Virus record (IMG/VR): IMGVR_UViG_3300002120_000033
Span: 1 to 22,189 of that record
Source of the DNA: a virus
Length of the DNA stretch: 22,189 nt
Reading direction: 5' to 3' (one strand)
Each line of letters opens with the position of its first letter. Position 1 is the first letter of the stretch. Below, in pieces: positions 2,384 to 11,103 of the stretch. Both the position numbers and the translations under genes were made by a program. The notes below the pieces were generated by a model. The model was given only the letters and a program-made list of their open reading frames with translations, ran no database searches and was not told where the DNA came from.

Positions 2384-5300
2384 ATGCCTACTACTGGTGC
2401 ACTTCTCCCGCAATCTGCGGTAACTGCCTCTGAAAGTCCCTGGTCTGATAATGACTGGGTAAATCCGAATAATATCTTTGGCGCGGGTGAGGCAGAGGTT
2501 ACCGCCGCAACGTTCGATGCGGGCGATCAAACCTTTGTCCTAAAAGCATACAACTTCAATTTCAGCTCCATTCCAGATGGAGCAACTATCCTGGGTGTGC
2601 GTTGTATTATCAATGCGCGCGAGGCTGTTGCCCCAGGGTTGATTGATCTGGTGCAATTATTAGACATTAACGGGGCGAAGGTTGGAACTAATCTAGCTGC
2701 TACACCGGTCGATTTGACCACCAGCGCAGCCGATTATACATTCGGTTCGTCAACTAATAAATGGGGTAATGAGCTAACGACAGCCTGGGTCAAGGATGCT
2801 GATTTTGGCGTTGCTATCGGTATGCTGGCAGGTGGAACGGGAAATAATAATGTCGATGTTTTTTGCGATTATGTAACTCTGGAGGTTTTCTATTCGATTG
2901 CGATAACAGACAATCAGCCCATTTATATAAAAGGCAAGTCGAGCATCACAGATAATCAACCAATATTTCTCAAGGGAAAAGATCAAAGCACAGACAATCA
3001 GCCCATTTATCTAGGCGGCAAATTATCCATCTCAGATAACCAACCGATATTTCTGTCGGGCATAGCAACTATTTCGGATAATCAATCTATTTATAGCAAG
3101 GGCAGGGCAAATATAGTTGATAACCAGCCCATTTTTGTTGTTACAGAAGAAGTCCCTTATTCCCCTGTTGATACCGGCCTTTTAGATACCTGGATTACTA
3201 ACCGTGTCTGGCCCGATATTGCTATCAAGACCGGAAGTACAGGAGATGTAGATACCTGGATCACCAATAGATTGTGGCCCGATATTTATGTGGTTGGCGA
3301 AGAGGCCATGCCCACGGCCAACCAGCCTATCTACCTCAAGGGAAAGGCCGCAATATCAGACAATCAGCCTGTTTATTTAGCAGGCGGGATTGTAGAGACT
3401 GATAACCAATCCGTATTTCTGAAGGGACAGGCTGAGCAAACTGATAATCAACCAGTCTATTTGACCGGTCAAGACAGCCATACCGATAATCAACCCGTAT
3501 ATTTAGCGGGCTCTCTTGACATAACCGACAATCAACCCATTTACCTTGCCGGTAAAGCGGAACAATCGAATAACCAGCCTGTCTATTTATCCGGTAAGAA
3601 TACCGAACAGGCTAACCAGGGAATTTATCTATCCGGCAAGGCGAGCATTACAGATAACCAATCTATATATACCGCAGGCAAAGATACCGAAACCGATAAC
3701 CAGCCCATCTATATTAGGGGGCAGGACACCGAAGCCGCCAACCAGCCTATATTCTTGTCGGGCAAGGATTCTTCAACTAATAACCTGTCAATATTCCTGG
3801 CTGGCAAAGCCTCGCTCTCTGACACACAGCCCATTTATTTATCGGGCAGCGCAGAGGCCACGAACAACCAGCCCGTATACCTGCAAGGGAAAAACTCGGA
3901 GAGCAATAACCAACCGATATTCCTGACTGGCGTTGATACTCAAACTGACACACAGCACATCTATCTGGCAGGCTCGCTCGATATTACCGATAACCAGGCA
4001 ATCTATTTAGCGGGTCGGGAAGAGCAATCAAATAGCCAGCCCATATTTACGCGCGGCAAGCAAAGCGAGCAAAACAATCAACCCATATTCCTGGCGGGGA
4101 AAGATGAGGCAACAGCTAATCAGCCGATCTACCTGGAGGGCGAATCGGCTGCGGTTGAAATCTCAGACAATCAGTCCATATATCTGAGGGGAAGCGCGGA
4201 GGAAAGCGCGTCTCAGGCGATCTACCTTTCCGGGCGGGCAGTCGAAACGGACAATCAACCCGCATTTCTCCAGGGTAAGGCAAGCATAACCGAGAACCAG
4301 GAAATCTACCTTGCTGGCAGTGTTCAGATTCAAAACAATCAGCTTATCTATCTTGCGGGCAAACAAACAACCAGCGCAGTACAGCCCGTTTTCCTGCAAG
4401 GCAAGTCTAGTATTACAGATAATCAGCCGGTTTATTTACTGGGGAAGGCTACAGAGCAAGCATCACAATCCATTTTCCTAAACGGGCAAGCCAGCCTCAC
4501 GGATAGTCAAGAGATTTTCCTGGCCGGACGAAACACAGAGGCCAATAACCAGGCCATTTACCTCGCTGGCAAGGCCGAGATTCAAAATAACCAACCCGTC
4601 TATCTTGGCGGGCAAGAAAGTGAAATCAATAATCAGTCTATATACCTTGCGGGGCAATCATCCCTCACAGAGACGCAGCCGGTTTATCTTGCGGGCAAGG
4701 ATACCGAGACCAACAACCAGCCGATCTTCCTGCATGGTCAGGCAATAGAACAAGCTAACCAGCCAGTATTTCTGAACGCTGAAGACACGGCGATCAATAG
4801 CCAACCAATTTATTTGCATGGCAAGGCGAGTGAGGCGAATAACCAGCCAATCTTTATAATCGGTGAAAGCGCACTCTCCAATACCCAATCTATCTACCTC
4901 GCCGGTGTTGATACTCATACTGATGTTCAACCCATCTACTTGACTGGTGGCATTATAGTCACAGAAACGCAATCAGTTTATCTGGTTGGTAAAGCATCTG
5001 AGACTGACAATCAATCAATTTTCCTATCTGGTAAAATTGAGCTATCCTTCAGTCAATCCATTTATCTAAATGGAAATGCTGAAATCTCCAATAACCGGGC
5101 TATTTATACAAGGGGTAAAGCAAGCACATCCGATAGCCAAGATATTTATTTATCTGGTGGGATAATTGTCCAGAATAATCAAATAATATACTTAAAAGGT
5201 TCTGCTGAAATAATTGATAATCAAGTTATTTATACTTCCGGTAAGGATAGTATTGCAGATAATCAAACTTGTTATCTTAAAGGACAAAATGTACAAACGA

Positions 5301-7522
5301 ATAATCAACCTATCTATTTGGTTGGGAAAGATATACTTTCAGATAATCAAACTATATATACTAGAGGTAAAGATTCTCTTGCGCAAGGCCAAGCCACCTT
5401 CACACAAGCCCAAGCGCAGGAGGAAAAAAACCAGCCTGTCTATTTAAAAGGACAGGCAGAAACTTCTAACAATCAAGAAATTTATCTGATTGGACAAACA
5501 ACCACATCGGATAACCAAGTTATCTTTTTACAAGGTGCAGAAGGAGCTACAAATAACCAAGCTATTTATTTGAAAGGTAGTGCAGTTGCTTCAAATAACC
5601 AAGAAATATTTTTATCTGGTAGAAATTCTGAAACTAATAGCCAACCTTGTTATCTATCAGGTAGAGACTCCCTTTCTAATAATCAAAGTATATTTCTTGT
5701 AGGCAAGCAAGAAATAAGTGATAACCAACCCGCCTATCTAGAAGGACAATCCTCACAAACTGCTAATCAAACTATTTATCTTGTTGGAAAAGCAGTTATT
5801 ACAGATTCTCAATCTATATACCTAATAGGTAAAGCAAGTGATACAGCATCACAAGAAATCTATTTAGCTGGCGGAATAGATGTTATTAATAACCAACCTG
5901 TTTATCTAACTGGTAAAAATACGTCTATTGCTAATCAACCAATTTATATAGAGGGTGAGGGAGGTATCACAGCCTCACGAAGCATATATCTAAAAGGTAA
6001 AGATACTCATACAGATAACCAACCTATTTACTTGGTTGGTGGTATCATTGTATCTGAATCACAATCTATTTACCTAGCTGGTAAAGATTCTGAGGATAGC
6101 AGCCAGGCTCTGTATCTAAAAGGTAAGGCCTCTGAAATAGATAACCAACCCGTCTACTTAATAGGTAGGAATGAGATTCTCTCTAGCCAGCCTATTTATC
6201 TTAGAAGTAGTGCTGAGATTTCAGATAATCAAGAGATATATCTGAGAGGTTCTATAGAAACAACAAACAGTCAAATTATTTATTTGACAGGTGGACAAAT
6301 TGTTGTTAATAATCAAAATATTTATCTTACGGGCAAAGATAGCATTAGTAATAACCTCCCTATATATGCTAATGTTGAAGGCAGTATAACAGCTAATCAA
6401 GCTATCTACTTAATTGGTAAAAATACCGCCTCAAATAATCAGAATGTTTACCTGACTGGTAAAATACAAATAGAAGCCTCCCAAGAGATTTTTATCAAAG
6501 GCCGGGCTACAGAACAAAATAACCAACCTATTTACTCTATAGGAAAAGATACAGAAACTCAAACACAAGCTATATACTTAGCAGGAAAAGCAGAGAGTTC
6601 TAACCCACAATCTATATTCTTATATGGTAAAGACTCTTCTACTGATAATCAAACTATATACTTAACAGGTAGGGCAGATATTCAAGCCAACCAGCCTATA
6701 TATTTGGTTGGTGGGATTATTGTACAGAATAATCAAACTATTTATCTACATGGACAAAATAGTGTAACAGATAGTCAAAGTATTTATCTTGTATCTGGAA
6801 ATCTTACCTCTGATAACCAACCCATTTACTTAAAAGGTATAGACACTTCTATAAATAATCAGCCAATATATTCGGCTGGTAAAGACATTGTTCAAAATAG
6901 TCAACCAATCTACCTGAATAGTTCGTTAGAAGCTACAGCTACTCAACCAATATATCTATCTGGTAAAGATATATCTGTAGATACTCAAAATATTTACTTA
7001 GTTGGTAAAGAAAGTATCACCAATAACCAAGCTATCTACTTAATTGGTCAAGTTGCTATAGAAAATAACCAACCCATTTACTTGACGGGTGCTGGAATTG
7101 CTATTTCTGATAACCAGGTAATTTATTTATCTGGTAAAAATGATCTTCAAGATAATATACCAATTTACTTAATAGGTTCGTCAGAAATATCTTCTACACA
7201 AGATATATATCTAACTGGTTCTTTCTCCTCAGAAAATAGCCTATCTATCTATCTAACTGGTATTGAAACTATTCAAAGCTCTCAACCTATCTTTGTAGTA
7301 GGTTCATTAACAATTACAGATTCTATCCCCATATATCTTGATACGAGAGTTTTAGTTATTGCTAATCAACCCATATATCTGAAAGGTACGGCTGTTTTTA
7401 CAAAAATAATTAGTTTAAAAGGCAGTTTCAAAGAGAATATAAATCTATCTGGTATATTTACAGAATCTACAGAATTAAAGGGAAGATTTTCTCAATATAA
7501 AACTCTAAAAGGGAGTGAATAA
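2384..7522 (+). CDS. Giant repeat fibre protein, 103 x 14-residue repeats
   Basis: This 1712-residue protein has three parts. Residues 1-172 form a beta-sandwich domain seen in phage fibre proteins, with marks such as the WVNPNN segment, SSIPDGATILGVRCII, a WG pair and a final VTLEVFYS strand. Residues 174-1671 are 103 head-to-tail repeats, nearly all exactly 14 residues, with consensus xTDNQPIYLxGKxx. The length departures are a 57-residue insertion after repeat 6 (254-310) and repeats of 13, 17 and 15 residues. The last 40 residues switch to shorter 10-residue LKG-type units. No membrane segment or signal peptide is present. One NQ turn, one IYL strand and one Gly turn per repeat suggest a very long beta-solenoid or beta-spiral shaft. 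Position between the appendage and neck genes suggests a head, neck or tail fibre. Repeats before about 5150 are GC-richer than later ones. The upstream ribosome binding site is weak (TAGGTTGA). The fold is inferred. Confidence 0.8.
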   Translation: MPTTGALLPQSAVTASESPWSDNDWVNPNNIFGAGEAEVTAATFDAGDQTFVLKAYNFNFSSIPDGATILGVRCIINAREAVAPGLIDLVQLLDINGAKVGTNLAATPVDLTTSAADYTFGSSTNKWGNELTTAWVKDADFGVAIGMLAGGTGNNNVDVFCDYVTLEVFYSIAITDNQPIYIKGKSSITDNQPIFLKGKDQSTDNQPIYLGGKLSISDNQPIFLSGIATISDNQSIYSKGRANIVDNQPIFVVTEEVPYSPVDTGLLDTWITNRVWPDIAIKTGSTGDVDTWITNRLWPDIYVVGEEAMPTANQPIYLKGKAAISDNQPVYLAGGIVETDNQSVFLKGQAEQTDNQPVYLTGQDSHTDNQPVYLAGSLDITDNQPIYLAGKAEQSNNQPVYLSGKNTEQANQGIYLSGKASITDNQSIYTAGKDTETDNQPIYIRGQDTEAANQPIFLSGKDSSTNNLSIFLAGKASLSDTQPIYLSGSAEATNNQPVYLQGKNSESNNQPIFLTGVDTQTDTQHIYLAGSLDITDNQAIYLAGREEQSNSQPIFTRGKQSEQNNQPIFLAGKDEATANQPIYLEGESAAVEISDNQSIYLRGSAEESASQAIYLSGRAVETDNQPAFLQGKASITENQEIYLAGSVQIQNNQLIYLAGKQTTSAVQPVFLQGKSSITDNQPVYLLGKATEQASQSIFLNGQASLTDSQEIFLAGRNTEANNQAIYLAGKAEIQNNQPVYLGGQESEINNQSIYLAGQSSLTETQPVYLAGKDTETNNQPIFLHGQAIEQANQPVFLNAEDTAINSQPIYLHGKASEANNQPIFIIGESALSNTQSIYLAGVDTHTDVQPIYLTGGIIVTETQSVYLVGKASETDNQSIFLSGKIELSFSQSIYLNGNAEISNNRAIYTRGKASTSDSQDIYLSGGIIVQNNQIIYLKGSAEIIDNQVIYTSGKDSIADNQTCYLKGQNVQTNNQPIYLVGKDILSDNQTIYTRGKDSLAQGQATFTQAQAQEEKNQPVYLKGQAETSNNQEIYLIGQTTTSDNQVIFLQGAEGATNNQAIYLKGSAVASNNQEIFLSGRNSETNSQPCYLSGRDSLSNNQSIFLVGKQEISDNQPAYLEGQSSQTANQTIYLVGKAVITDSQSIYLIGKASDTASQEIYLAGGIDVINNQPVYLTGKNTSIANQPIYIEGEGGITASRSIYLKGKDTHTDNQPIYLVGGIIVSESQSIYLAGKDSEDSSQALYLKGKASEIDNQPVYLIGRNEILSSQPIYLRSSAEISDNQEIYLRGSIETTNSQIIYLTGGQIVVNNQNIYLTGKDSISNNLPIYANVEGSITANQAIYLIGKNTASNNQNVYLTGKIQIEASQEIFIKGRATEQNNQPIYSIGKDTETQTQAIYLAGKAESSNPQSIFLYGKDSSTDNQTIYLTGRADIQANQPIYLVGGIIVQNNQTIYLHGQNSVTDSQSIYLVSGNLTSDNQPIYLKGIDTSINNQPIYSAGKDIVQNSQPIYLNSSLEATATQPIYLSGKDISVDTQNIYLVGKESITNNQAIYLIGQVAIENNQPIYLTGAGIAISDNQVIYLSGKNDLQDNIPIYLIGSSEISSTQDIYLTGSFSSENSLSIYLTGIETIQSSQPIFVVGSLTITDSIPIYLDTRVLVIANQPIYLKGTAVFTKIISLKGSFKENINLSGIFTESTELKGRFSQYKTLKGSE
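2903..7396 (+). repeat. 103 tandem 42-bp coding units (14-residue repeats)
   Basis: Counting from residue 174 to 1671 gives 103 units: 99 of exactly 14 residues, one of 13, one of 17, one of 15, and one (repeat 6) carrying a 57-residue insertion. These sum exactly to the 1498 residues spanned. Most conserved are Asn-Gln at positions 4-5, an aliphatic-aromatic-aliphatic strand (I/V, Y/F, L) at 7-9, and Gly at 11. Positions 1-3 and 12-14 vary and are rich in Ser, Thr, Asp and Glu. At DNA level the units are strongly diverged in codons, so this is an old or selected protein repeat rather than a recent simple tandem expansion. Some blocks repeat at a higher order, for example repeats 10-14 and 21-25. 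Confidence 0.9.
3143..3313 (+). other. Non-repeat insertion with duplicated DTWITNRxWPDI motif
   Basis: Between repeats 6 and 7 the 14-residue periodicity stops for 57 residues (254-310). The insertion carries two copies of DTWITNR-V/L-WPDI, beginning at nucleotides 3185 and 3251, 22 residues apart, and then the repeats resume. The motif is rich in aromatic residues, unlike the surrounding shaft. It may be a hinge, a small binding module or a site for another virion protein; function is unknown. Confidence 0.8.
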
Positions 7523-7569
7523 TTAAAAAAAATTGCAGGTTTTGTGTATAATTAAGTATAGGAGACAAT

Positions 7570-7914
7570 ATGACAGAGGAACAACAGAATTTTGAAATAT
7601 ACTCTGGAGATACTAATAATATATTAATAACTGTTACAAATCTAGAAACCAATGAGCCTAAGGATTTAGATGGTAGTTCTATAGAATGGATTTTATATGA
7701 TCCTTATTCTGGAGAAGTTTTAATGACAAAAACTACAACTAGCGGCGTATCAATTTTAGGCTCTGGAATTTTTGCAGTTATGCTCCTTCCTGAAGATTCT
7801 CTTCTAATTCCTCCAGCAGTTTGGTATATGCATGAGGCTGAAGTCACAGATTCTCTTGGAATTATTAGTACAGTTACTACAGGATATGTTAGAGTAAAAG
7901 GAAGTAAAATATAA
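7570..7914 (+). CDS. BppU N-terminal-like virion protein
   Basis: This 114-residue protein has an AGGAG ribosome binding site (7560-7564) 5 nt before ATG. The pattern FEIYSGDTNNILITV, then DLDGSSIEWILYDP, a central GSGIFAVML strand, WYMHEAEVTDSLG and a final TTGYVRV strand matches the small all-beta domain found at the N-terminus of BppU-type baseplate proteins and in stand-alone phage proteins beside head-tail connector genes. It probably acts as an adaptor between virion parts. It has no catalytic residues and no membrane segment. The stop TAA shares its last A with the ATG of the following adaptor gene, so the two are likely translationally coupled. Family placement is by pattern, not a search. 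Confidence 0.6.
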   Translation: MTEEQQNFEIYSGDTNNILITVTNLETNEPKDLDGSSIEWILYDPYSGEVLMTKTTTSGVSILGSGIFAVMLLPEDSLLIPPAVWYMHEAEVTDSLGIISTVTTGYVRVKGSKI

Positions 7915-8423
7915 TGGCTACTGTAGATATTAGTTATTTAGTACCGCATCTAAGATTATTTATTGGAGACATTTCTCCAGCAACTTACAGATATATTGAT
8001 GAGTGGCTATTAGTAGCATTAAAGGCTAGTGTAAAAGTTTTAGGCAGTTGGTGGCCGGATAGAAATAAATATCTAATAGATGAAAGTGGATTAGTTTATA
8101 GAAATACTTTAGTAAGTTTTCCAGAAGCTGAACCTCCTGTTATCCTGCCTGATGATGAAAGACCTATAATTGTGATGGCAACAATTATAATTTTAGAAGG
8201 AAGTCTAGAAAATACTGCTTGGAATCTAGTTTCCTGGAGAGATAATGAAATAGCCTTTTCTAATTTAGAAAGTGGTAGGATGAAAGATAGAAATATAACA
8301 AGACTTTGGAATGAACTGTTATATCTAATAAATCCTCCAACTAAAAAACTTGCCAGAGCTATAAAAAGTAGTTTACCAGGTTATCTAACTAATCCATACG
8401 AACGTTCTTTAACAGACCCATAA
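7914..8423 (+). CDS. Head-tail adaptor (connector) candidate
   Basis: This 169-residue protein starts at an ATG overlapping the previous stop by 1 nt. It begins MATVDISYLVPHLRLFIGD, is mostly helical, and contains the phrase SWRDNEIAFSNLESGRM, which I recognise from uncharacterised phage proteins in the gene slot of head-tail adaptors (HK97 gp6-like and similar). Adaptors form the first ring under the portal. Order supports this: it lies upstream of a head-closure candidate, a tail-completion candidate and the tail tube. It lacks signal or membrane segments. The C-terminus (PTKKLARAIKSSLPGYLTNP) is basic. The function is inferred from position and resemblance. Confidence 0.6.
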   Translation: MATVDISYLVPHLRLFIGDISPATYRYIDEWLLVALKASVKVLGSWWPDRNKYLIDESGLVYRNTLVSFPEAEPPVILPDDERPIIVMATIIILEGSLENTAWNLVSWRDNEIAFSNLESGRMKDRNITRLWNELLYLINPPTKKLARAIKSSLPGYLTNPYERSLTDP

Positions 8424-8446: not shown

Positions 8447-10669
8447 ATGCAAAATATATTTTGGATTTCAGATGGAATAGCCAAAACAGGTTTCAGTACG
8501 GTAGCAATGAATATAATTAAAAATATGCCCAAAGATAGGTATGATGTACATCATTTAGCAATAAATTACTATGGTGATCCGCATACTTATGATTGGAAGA
8601 TATATCCAGCAGCTATAAAAAATGATTTACTAGGATTTAATAGAGTTAAAGATTTTTTACAAGCACCTTTGGATGGAATTTTTATTCTCAATGATGTTTG
8701 GGTAATTGATAGATATTTAAAATTGATTGAAGAGTTTTATGGAGAAAATCCTCCTCCTCCAATTATTGTTTACTTTCCCATAGATTCTATGTTTTTAGAC
8801 CCTGAATGGTTTTCAAGATTTCACTTAGTTAAAAAAGCTTTTACTTATACAAACTTTGGAAAAAATGAAATAGACAGACTAAATTTAAAAGAGTTAGATG
8901 TTGGAATAATTCCTCATGGTGTAGATTTAAAATCTTTTTATAAAATAGATAAACTCTCAGCTAGAGAAGTTGTTTTTAAAGAAAATTTTGAAGAATTTAA
9001 AGACGCTTTTGTAGTATTAAATGCAAATAGAAACCAACCTAGAAAAAGAATTGACTTAACAATAGAAGGTTTTTCTAGATTTGTCAAGAATAAACCTAAT
9101 GATAATATAAAACTTTATTTACATATGGGCATAAAAGATGTAGGTTGGGATATTGTTAAATTAAGTGCTAGATTGGGGGTGGATGAAAGATTGATTTTAT
9201 CTGGTAGCAATATCGGTTCTCCTAATATATCAGAAGAGGTTCTAAATCTTATATATAACTCCGCTGACGTGGGTATAAACACTTGTTATTTACCTGGAAC
9301 TAAAGTTTTAACTGAGAATGGAAGTAAAAATATAGAAGAGATTGCTCCAGGAGAAAAGGTATTTTCCCATTTAGGAATATTAAGAGATGTGAAAAAGACC
9401 TTTAAATTTAGTAAAAATGACGAAGAGGTTCTTAAAATCACTCCTTACGGAATTTTACCTCTTACTCTAACTAAAAATCATAAGCTATATTCTATATTAC
9501 CCCCATATCTCAGATTAAACAGAAAGTATAAGAAAATTCTTTTGGAAAATTTAGAGCCAGATTTTATAGAGAGTAAATATTTAATGGAAGGTTCTTTACT
9601 AACTTTCCCAATAATTAAAGATGAGAAAATTTCTATAGGCACTAAAACAGCCTTTATTTATGGAGCATTTTTAGCCGAAGGATCTACCAACAAGAGTGGG
9701 CTTGTTTTCTCCTTAGATTCGAGAATATATGATGATGAACTAAGAAATGAGATTATTTCTTGTATGAAGGAAGTTTATAGTCTCGAACCTCATATTTCAA
9801 ATATGGATAGAAATAGACAAAATATTTATTTTTATTCATCCAAATTGAGCAAAGAATTTAGAGAAAAACTCGGCCCTAATGCCCACAATAAAAAACTTCC
9901 TAATGAATTACTTTTTATGAAAAGAGATGAAAAATTAGCCCTTCTTAGGGGAGCAATTTTAGGGGATGGAAGTTTCGATCATACCACAATATCCTATACA
10001 ACAGTTTCAGAAGAGCTGGCTTTACAAATTTGGTTTATTTTAACTACCCTTGGAGGTATAGCACCGAGCATTAATAAACGAAGTCGAGGCGAATTCGTTG
10101 TTAGAGTTTATGGAAATAGTTCTATAAACTTAGCTAAAGAATGTAATATAATAAATAAAAGTAAAAAATTGGTTCAAGAAAAGAAACAGCAGAGGCCAAA
10201 AATTATAGTTACTGAGGACTTCTTGTACTACCCCATAAGAAAAATAGAAAAAATTAATTACACCGGCCTTGTCTATGACTTAGAGGTAGATGGAGAACAT
10301 TCTTATGTTTCACACGTGTCTGGACATAATTCTGTTGGTGAAGGTTGGGGATTAGTAAACCATGAACATGCAGTAACTGGCGCACCTCAAATAGTGCCAG
10401 CACATTCAGCGTTATTAGAATTATATAGAGATAACGGAATCTTAATTCCTATAGATAAATGGGTTTTCAATAAAGATCCATTAACATTAGGTGGAGAAGT
10501 TAGGGCAGAAGACGTGGCTATAGCTTTAGAAAGTATCTATCAAAATAGAGATACTCTATATAACAGACTATCTGAGAAAACCCTTAATAAGTTCGCTGCA
10601 CCTGAATATGATTGGAAAAATATAGTAGAGAAATATTGGCTACCGGCTTTTGAGGAAATATGGAAATAA
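8447..10669 (+). CDS. GT-B (GT4-like) glycosyltransferase containing an intein
   Basis: This 740-codon reading frame encodes a glycosyltransferase of 279 + 112 = 391 residues after removal of a 349-residue intein (residues 280-628). The N-terminal Rossmann half has a glycine loop at residues 10-20 (GIAKTGFSTVA). The second half has NRNQPRKRIDLTIEGF (from residue 194), typical of GT4 enzymes. After the intein comes SVGEGWGLVNHE with the E-x7-E catalytic pair at E632 and E640. Such enzymes transfer a sugar from a nucleotide-sugar donor; donor and acceptor cannot be read here. There is no membrane anchor, so it is cytoplasmic. The ribosome binding site is AAAGGA/AAAGG just before ATG. It lies among neck genes and its end overlaps the next gene by 10 nt. 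A role in glycosylating virion proteins, such as the repeat fibre, is possible but unproven. Confidence 0.85.
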   Translation: MQNIFWISDGIAKTGFSTVAMNIIKNMPKDRYDVHHLAINYYGDPHTYDWKIYPAAIKNDLLGFNRVKDFLQAPLDGIFILNDVWVIDRYLKLIEEFYGENPPPPIIVYFPIDSMFLDPEWFSRFHLVKKAFTYTNFGKNEIDRLNLKELDVGIIPHGVDLKSFYKIDKLSAREVVFKENFEEFKDAFVVLNANRNQPRKRIDLTIEGFSRFVKNKPNDNIKLYLHMGIKDVGWDIVKLSARLGVDERLILSGSNIGSPNISEEVLNLIYNSADVGINTCYLPGTKVLTENGSKNIEEIAPGEKVFSHLGILRDVKKTFKFSKNDEEVLKITPYGILPLTLTKNHKLYSILPPYLRLNRKYKKILLENLEPDFIESKYLMEGSLLTFPIIKDEKISIGTKTAFIYGAFLAEGSTNKSGLVFSLDSRIYDDELRNEIISCMKEVYSLEPHISNMDRNRQNIYFYSSKLSKEFREKLGPNAHNKKLPNELLFMKRDEKLALLRGAILGDGSFDHTTISYTTVSEELALQIWFILTTLGGIAPSINKRSRGEFVVRVYGNSSINLAKECNIINKSKKLVQEKKQQRPKIIVTEDFLYYPIRKIEKINYTGLVYDLEVDGEHSYVSHVSGHNSVGEGWGLVNHEHAVTGAPQIVPAHSALLELYRDNGILIPIDKWVFNKDPLTLGGEVRAEDVAIALESIYQNRDTLYNRLSEKTLNKFAAPEYDWKNIVEKYWLPAFEEIWK
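9284..10330 (+). mobile_element. Intein with LAGLIDADG homing endonuclease domain
   Basis: This 349-residue in-frame insertion has all key intein marks. It begins with Cys280 in CYLPGTKVLTENG (block A). Block B has T342-K-N-H345. Two LAGLIDADG motifs are YGAFLAEG (acidic residue E411) and RGAILGDG (D507). Block F is VYDLEVDGEHSYVS, and the end is VSGH627-N628 with Ser629 as the +1 residue. Removing it joins GINT to SVGEGWGL, restoring an uninterrupted glycosyltransferase motif. All residues needed for splicing (Cys1, TxxH, His-Asn, +1 Ser) are present, and the endonuclease acidic residues are intact, so both activities look possible. Base composition matches the surrounding AT-rich genes. Confidence 0.95.
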
Positions 10670-11103
10670 CTTGGCCTGAGAATACTAAAGATGTTACAGA
10701 TAAAATTAGAGAAGCTATTGGCAGAGATGTCACATTTGTAATTGTAGCTTCTTCCAATCCTTGTACAGTATGTTCCTTAGATCCTGTAACAAACACTTCC
10801 ACAGATTCGTTTTGTCTCGTTTGTTCTGGAGACTATTGGATACCAGTTTATGAAGATGAAATTGTCAATGCACACATAACTTGGGGTGGTGTAGACCAAC
10901 TAGGTTGGGTAACTGGTGGACAATTATTTGAAGGAGATTGCAGGATAGGAATATCGTATTCGCAAGAAAATCTAAATATTATAGATAAAACAGAATATGT
11001 TGTAGTAGATGGTAGAATTCTACAGATAAAGAATAAAATATTCAGAGGTGTACCAGAAATTAATAGGATATTGATAAACTTTATTGAAAAAGGTAAGGAG
11101 TAA
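10660..11103 (+). CDS. Small zinc-binding-type neck protein (head-closure candidate)
   Basis: This 147-residue protein starts 10 nt before the end of the glycosyltransferase gene, suggesting coupled translation. It has two CxxC pairs at Cys35/Cys38 and Cys52/Cys55 with 13 residues between them, inside SNPCTVCSLDPV and SFCLVCSGDYW, which looks like a structural zinc knuckle. The remainder is beta-rich (WVTGGQLFEGDCRIGISY, then YVVVDGRILQI). The size, small zinc site and place after the adaptor suggest a head-closure or stopper protein at the connector. No enzyme motif is seen. The role rests on order and general resemblance to phage neck proteins. Confidence 0.6.
   Translation: MEITWPENTKDVTDKIREAIGRDVTFVIVASSNPCTVCSLDPVTNTSTDSFCLVCSGDYWIPVYEDEIVNAHITWGGVDQLGWVTGGQLFEGDCRIGISYSQENLNIIDKTEYVVVDGRILQIKNKIFRGVPEINRILINFIEKGKE

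Follow-up and report, generated by a model that had tools for sequence, protein, structure and literature searches.

The locus comprises a gene for a predicted GT4-like glycosyltransferase that carries an in-frame intein, together with two conserved neighbouring genes, within a 22,189-base virus record of an uncultured phage (the whole stretch of DNA analysed, hereafter referred to as the window). The coordinates of all features are collected in Table 1. The reading frame of the gene is uninterrupted and encodes a precursor of 740 residues, for which the predicted spliced product has 391 residues. The intein begins with Cys1 (codon 9284–9286) and ends with an Asn (codon 10328–10330), and is followed by Ser+1 at 10331.

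Table 1 Features of the glycosyltransferase locus in the window
Feature	Coordinates	Strand	Details
Conserved upstream neighbour, 169 aa	7914..8423	+	in 59 of 93 family loci
GT4-like glycosyltransferase gene (predicted) with in-frame intein	8447..10669	+	phrog_2170, 5e-31; Pfam, structure and sequence matches
N-extein, 279 aa	8447..9283	+	ends in ...YNSADVGINT
Intein, 349 aa, Cys1...His348-Asn349	9284..10330	+	precursor residues 280–628
Block B, T63-K-N-H66 (TxxH)	9470..9481	+	T63 and H66 invariant in five inteins
LAGLIDADG motif 1, IYGAFLAEGS	9656..9685	+	acidic E132 at 9677–9679
LAGLIDADG motif 2, LLRGAILGDGS	9941..9973	+	acidic D228 at 9965–9967
Block F, VYDLEVDGEHSY	10271..10306	+	D332, H339; common to L009
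Block G, SGHN, then Ser+1	10319..10330	+	L009 likewise GHN, then S
C-extein, 112 aa	10331..10666	+	starts with SVGEGWGLVNHEHAV; stop codon 10667–10669
E-x7-E motif	10340..10366	+	first Glu 10340–10342, second Glu 10364–10366; aligned with 3oy2 EGFGLCSAE
Conserved downstream neighbour, 147 aa, Cys-rich	10660..11103	+	in 52 of 93 family loci

The sequences flanking the insert match the phrog_2170 glycosyltransferase family of phages, and they match the chlorella virus glycosyltransferase 3oy2 by both sequence and fold. The latter is also the top structural match of the precursor model (E 5.5e-16; GT-B fold), and an insert-free relative (L008) scores 26.4 bits, which equals the Pfam cut-off of Glycos_transf_1. 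We infer that the host enzyme is a GT4-like (GT-B) glycosyltransferase, with predicted activity. The gene is located in a cluster of virion-structure genes, and the same neighbours are present in most of the clade, so the glycosyltransferase belongs to the fixed gene content of this phage group.

One protein of the window (1,712 residues; 2384–7522) is built from a repeat of the type DNQPIYLxGK, present in very many copies. In Synechococcus phage S-EIV1 (L022:3983–5251) the motif of the family member reads KGGGWELVNFEH, with Gly instead of the first catalytic Glu and Glu instead of the Gly after Trp. An Acidobacteriota contig (L104:4920–6938) encodes a family member with about 250 further residues fused at its C terminus; this extension contains HIPKTGGTT and appears sulfotransferase-like by eye. 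Distant relatives of the window glycosyltransferase are also found in L106 and L108 (TM6 bacterium SOIL31 bin) and L105 (Arenicella bin), where they adjoin relatives of the neighbouring phage genes of the window. These three contigs from bacterial bins are possibly prophages or misbinned phage contigs that hint at hosts.

The insert has the anatomy of a class 1 intein. The full set of class 1 splicing residues is present and is common to the intein of a second phage contig (L009); the Cys1 nucleophile is present in both, and also in L075, L111 and L113 (see below). Pfam identifies LAGLIDADG_3 (PF14528; 2.1e-10) and a WhiA-type LAGLIDADG domain (1e-6) in the window intein. When modelled with AF2 (pLDDT 79), the window intein is matched by the TliVMA structure 7qsu (Hint fold; E 1.3e-19, TM 0.75), and the next structural matches are further TliVMA and PI-SceI entries. 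The anatomy, the Pfam matches and the fold match to 7qsu together rule out a chance motif match. The description given in the initial annotation, of a complete intein with both LAGLIDADG acidic residues, is thus confirmed (E132 in FLAEGS and D228 in LGDGS are kept): the insert is a complete class 1 intein with a two-motif LAGLIDADG endonuclease, predicted to splice and to cleave DNA. Its Intein_splicing score (8e-6, 26.2 bits) falls below the Pfam cut-off of 35.8, whereas that of the L009 intein (39.4 bits) lies above it. This low score, and the low AF2 confidence at the C-terminal junction, are what would be expected if the intein no longer spliced and the gene were dead, or if the contig were misassembled. 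However, the frame is unbroken, the catalytic residues are all kept, the extein residues are intact at either end of the insert and the same arrangement recurs in an independent contig (L009); we therefore regard a defective insertion as barely credible.

The insertion point (site A) lies between INT and SVGEGWGL, so that, as previously proposed for this gene, three residues (Ser, Val and Gly) separate the intein from the first Glu of E-x7-E. An exact empty site is found in L008, a syntenic, intein-free contig that is 52% identical over the N-extein: GINTSVGEGWGL is unbroken there, and the joined window extein aligns with it without a gap. When viral contigs were scanned for a pattern in which His-Asn directly precedes the motif, the L009 contig emerged; it carries a 344-residue intein at the identical position that is 50% identical to that of the window. 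Its nearest kin (L044, 74% identical) has an exact empty site A. Apart from L009, the matches to the pattern HN-xx-GEG[WF]G included no interrupted glycosyltransferases.

Of the two regions of highest conservation in the protein, one contains site A. Across 82 aligned exteins, G282, E283, G284, L287 and E291 are invariant or almost so, with the first Glu of E-x7-E present in 81 of the 82 sequences and the second in all 82; the 20-residue segment at the site ranks 6th of 391 positions in conservation. The initial annotation held the site to be highly conserved across GT4 enzymes in general, and hence suited to homing among them. Within the phage family the site is indeed near-invariant; beyond it, a scan with HN-[SCT]xxEGFGLP, which misses inteins without a terminal HN and hosts without EGFGLP, gave no site-A intein, either among viral contigs or across 84,980 species genomes, and cellular GT4 genes with such an intein were accordingly rejected as candidates. 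Both inteins and group I introns prefer the most conserved parts of proteins (PMC2814812).

A profile search returned at least 580 viral contigs with the glycosyltransferase, of which the best 80 were examined across the motif; as the N-terminal half set the ranking, inserts inside that half may be missed. The large majority of the family members examined are insert-free, and every insert found belongs to the clade that shares the glycosyltransferase neighbours. In an extein tree of 82 rows, the window and L009 fall in different well-supported sets, each surrounded by intein-free kin, and at least two changes are required. The inteins of the two contigs are 50% identical and their exteins 48%, so that a recent exchange between them is not apparent, and that candidate explanation for their shared position was set aside. 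Co-conversion of flanks was looked for around the site and gave no clear signal. The near equality of intein and extein identity would also be expected if the site-A intein were ancestral in the phage clade and had been inherited vertically and lost many times, its spread thus reflecting loss and not homing. This would, however, require that many lineages between the window and L009 had lost the intein precisely and in frame, and deletions of such precision should be rare; L044 is empty despite its close identity to L009, and both acidic endonuclease residues are intact in the window and L009 inteins. We consider vertical inheritance unlikely. On the sequences compared, gain by homing is the simplest reading of the patchy distribution, and the earlier suggestion of homing is consistent with that distribution and with the intact acidic residues.

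The same motif has been entered by other elements. A second intein site lies eight codons downstream of site A, between the two catalytic Glu residues. At this site, L075 carries a 324-residue intein between GEGWGL and CNVEHA, the LAGLIDADG motifs of which read LASGK and LLNKSR; its acidic endonuclease residues are therefore lost. L111, found by pattern scan, has a 141-residue mini-intein at the second site, from which the endonuclease is absent. The two group together in the extein tree (support 82) and belong to a starred set of four rows. L061 contains, between GEGWG and L and one codon ahead of the second intein site, an 878-nt insert with a 255-residue LAGLIDADG_2 open reading frame (2.5e-22). 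This insert displays signs of a group I intron: U is the last base of the 5′ exon and G that of the insert, a U.G pair can form at the splice site, and an internal guide, GGCCCC, can pair with the exon GGGGU (GGGGU/GAACUU...GGCCCC...UUUAG/CUA, with slashes at the insert ends). Rfam group I intron models gave no match to the insert, short stretches included, although the 768-nt open reading frame may break the model; for lack of such a match we grade the insert only as a probable group I intron with a LAGLIDADG open reading frame. L061, L075 and L009 (there as L036) surfaced in the ranked search without a motif pattern, whereas L111 did not. The three insertion sites (site A, the second intein site and that of L061) fall within 24 bp. 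According to the IMG/VR contig naming, L061 and L111 derive from metagenome 3300031565, and L009 and L075 from metagenome 3300031999.

Free-standing open reading frames that resemble HNH and GIY-YIG homing endonucleases by eye are also present between structural genes in the same phage clade (L009:3033–3602, 5044–5631 and 7407–8036; L008:10580–11293; L111:5409–5753).

Taken together, these data make it likely that the insert is a mobile class 1 LAGLIDADG intein that parasitizes a conserved phage GT4-like gene in the codons of its catalytic motif. Parasitic homing is well supported by the anatomy and the distribution, with splicing, DNA cleavage, transfer and enzyme activity each at the level of prediction. 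At the DNA level, the endonuclease would cut intein-free copies of the motif in co-infecting phages, and repair of the cut motif would copy the intein in. At the protein level, self-excision would proceed through attack by Cys1, transesterification to Ser+1 and cyclization of Asn349, thereby rejoining INT to SVGEGWGL and restoring an E-x7-E enzyme. A second intein lineage and the probable group I intron would have reached the same 24-bp stretch in separate events, with homing parasites presumably drawn to a near-invariant catalytic sequence. Mobile parasites thus appear to have landed repeatedly in the catalytic motif.

It had also been proposed that the need for splicing places the enzyme under post-translational control. 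The first part of this proposal is borne out: the intein adjoins the motif, splicing would be needed for an uninterrupted E-x7-E, and the precursor is therefore very probably inactive. In its fullest form, conditional splicing (responding to redox, temperature or infection stage) would activate the glycosyltransferase late, at a set stage of infection, and so control glycosylation of the virion or of the host surface, and the position of the gene in a virion-structure cluster would suit such a role. However, the great majority of the family members examined are insert-free and hence have no such switch, and inteins usually insert in catalytic motifs (PMC2814812, PMC5050341). The window extein has zero cysteines and so can form no disulfide trap with Cys1. 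Control of the enzyme thus finds no support here, and we consider a regulatory intein very unlikely compared with a homing parasite.

In its own architecture the intein resembles known class 1 LAGLIDADG inteins: TliVMA, PI-PkoII and PI-SceI have the same block order, catalytic residues and both acidic residues. The modelled fold matches TliVMA and PI-SceI, but the host gene, a GT4-like glycosyltransferase, differs. The nearest phage inteins found reside in terminase, DNA polymerase, methylase and thymidylate synthase hosts, and the closest intein outside the family in viral contigs is that of the L113 terminase, at about 26% identity. Among the matches listed in named phages and plasmids, intein relatives reach only about 21–28% identity, and the features listed under those matches include no glycosyltransferase.

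Chitin synthases are glycosyltransferases of family 2. Inteins are known in fungal chitin synthase (CHS) genes (PMC5784728), so that a sugar-transferring intein host as such is not new; these resemble the window intein in the activity of the host, but reside in a fungal nuclear gene with another fold and at another site. Mycobacteriophage inteins are inserted in functional motifs, as here, and several of them splice and encode active endonucleases; their hosts include terminases, nucleic-acid and nucleotide enzymes and a portal protein (PMC5050341), and the word glycosyltransferase is absent from that paper. In a methylase family of actinophages, an intein, a homing endonuclease and a third insert occupy separate conserved sites (PMC9957025). 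This is likewise one phage family with several elements in patchy distribution, but its sites are separate, whereas those of the glycosyltransferase family are three in 24 bp, one of them occupied by a probable group I intron. The open literature searched contained no described phage glycosyltransferase intein and no class of glycosyltransferase inteins at site A, although the fungal CHS inteins are known. A GT4-like phage intein host thus appears, provisionally, to be unreported in that literature, and joins a short list of intein hosts beyond nucleic-acid and nucleotide metabolism. One short catalytic motif would display the whole homing cycle side by side: some copies are empty, others hold a full intein or a mini-intein, in one the endonuclease of the intein has decayed, and in one a probable intron brings an endonuclease of its own. 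As different elements occur in contigs of the same metagenome, it is directly testable whether inteins and introns compete for one target.

A further group of contigs, which appeared in the first intein search, proved unrelated and was drawn in by its C-terminal block. In L007 (4080–6621; also L002–L006), a gene resembling UDP-glucose or nucleotide-sugar dehydrogenases contains a split-looking intein. A first open reading frame (4080–5147) ends in an intein N-half, the Cys of which follows GDAGA; a separate one (5147–6007) comes next; and a third (6004–6621) opens with an intein C-half that ends in VVHN before CHPRDN, apparently at the catalytic Cys motif. This arrangement is reminiscent of split inteins that flank a free-standing endonuclease.
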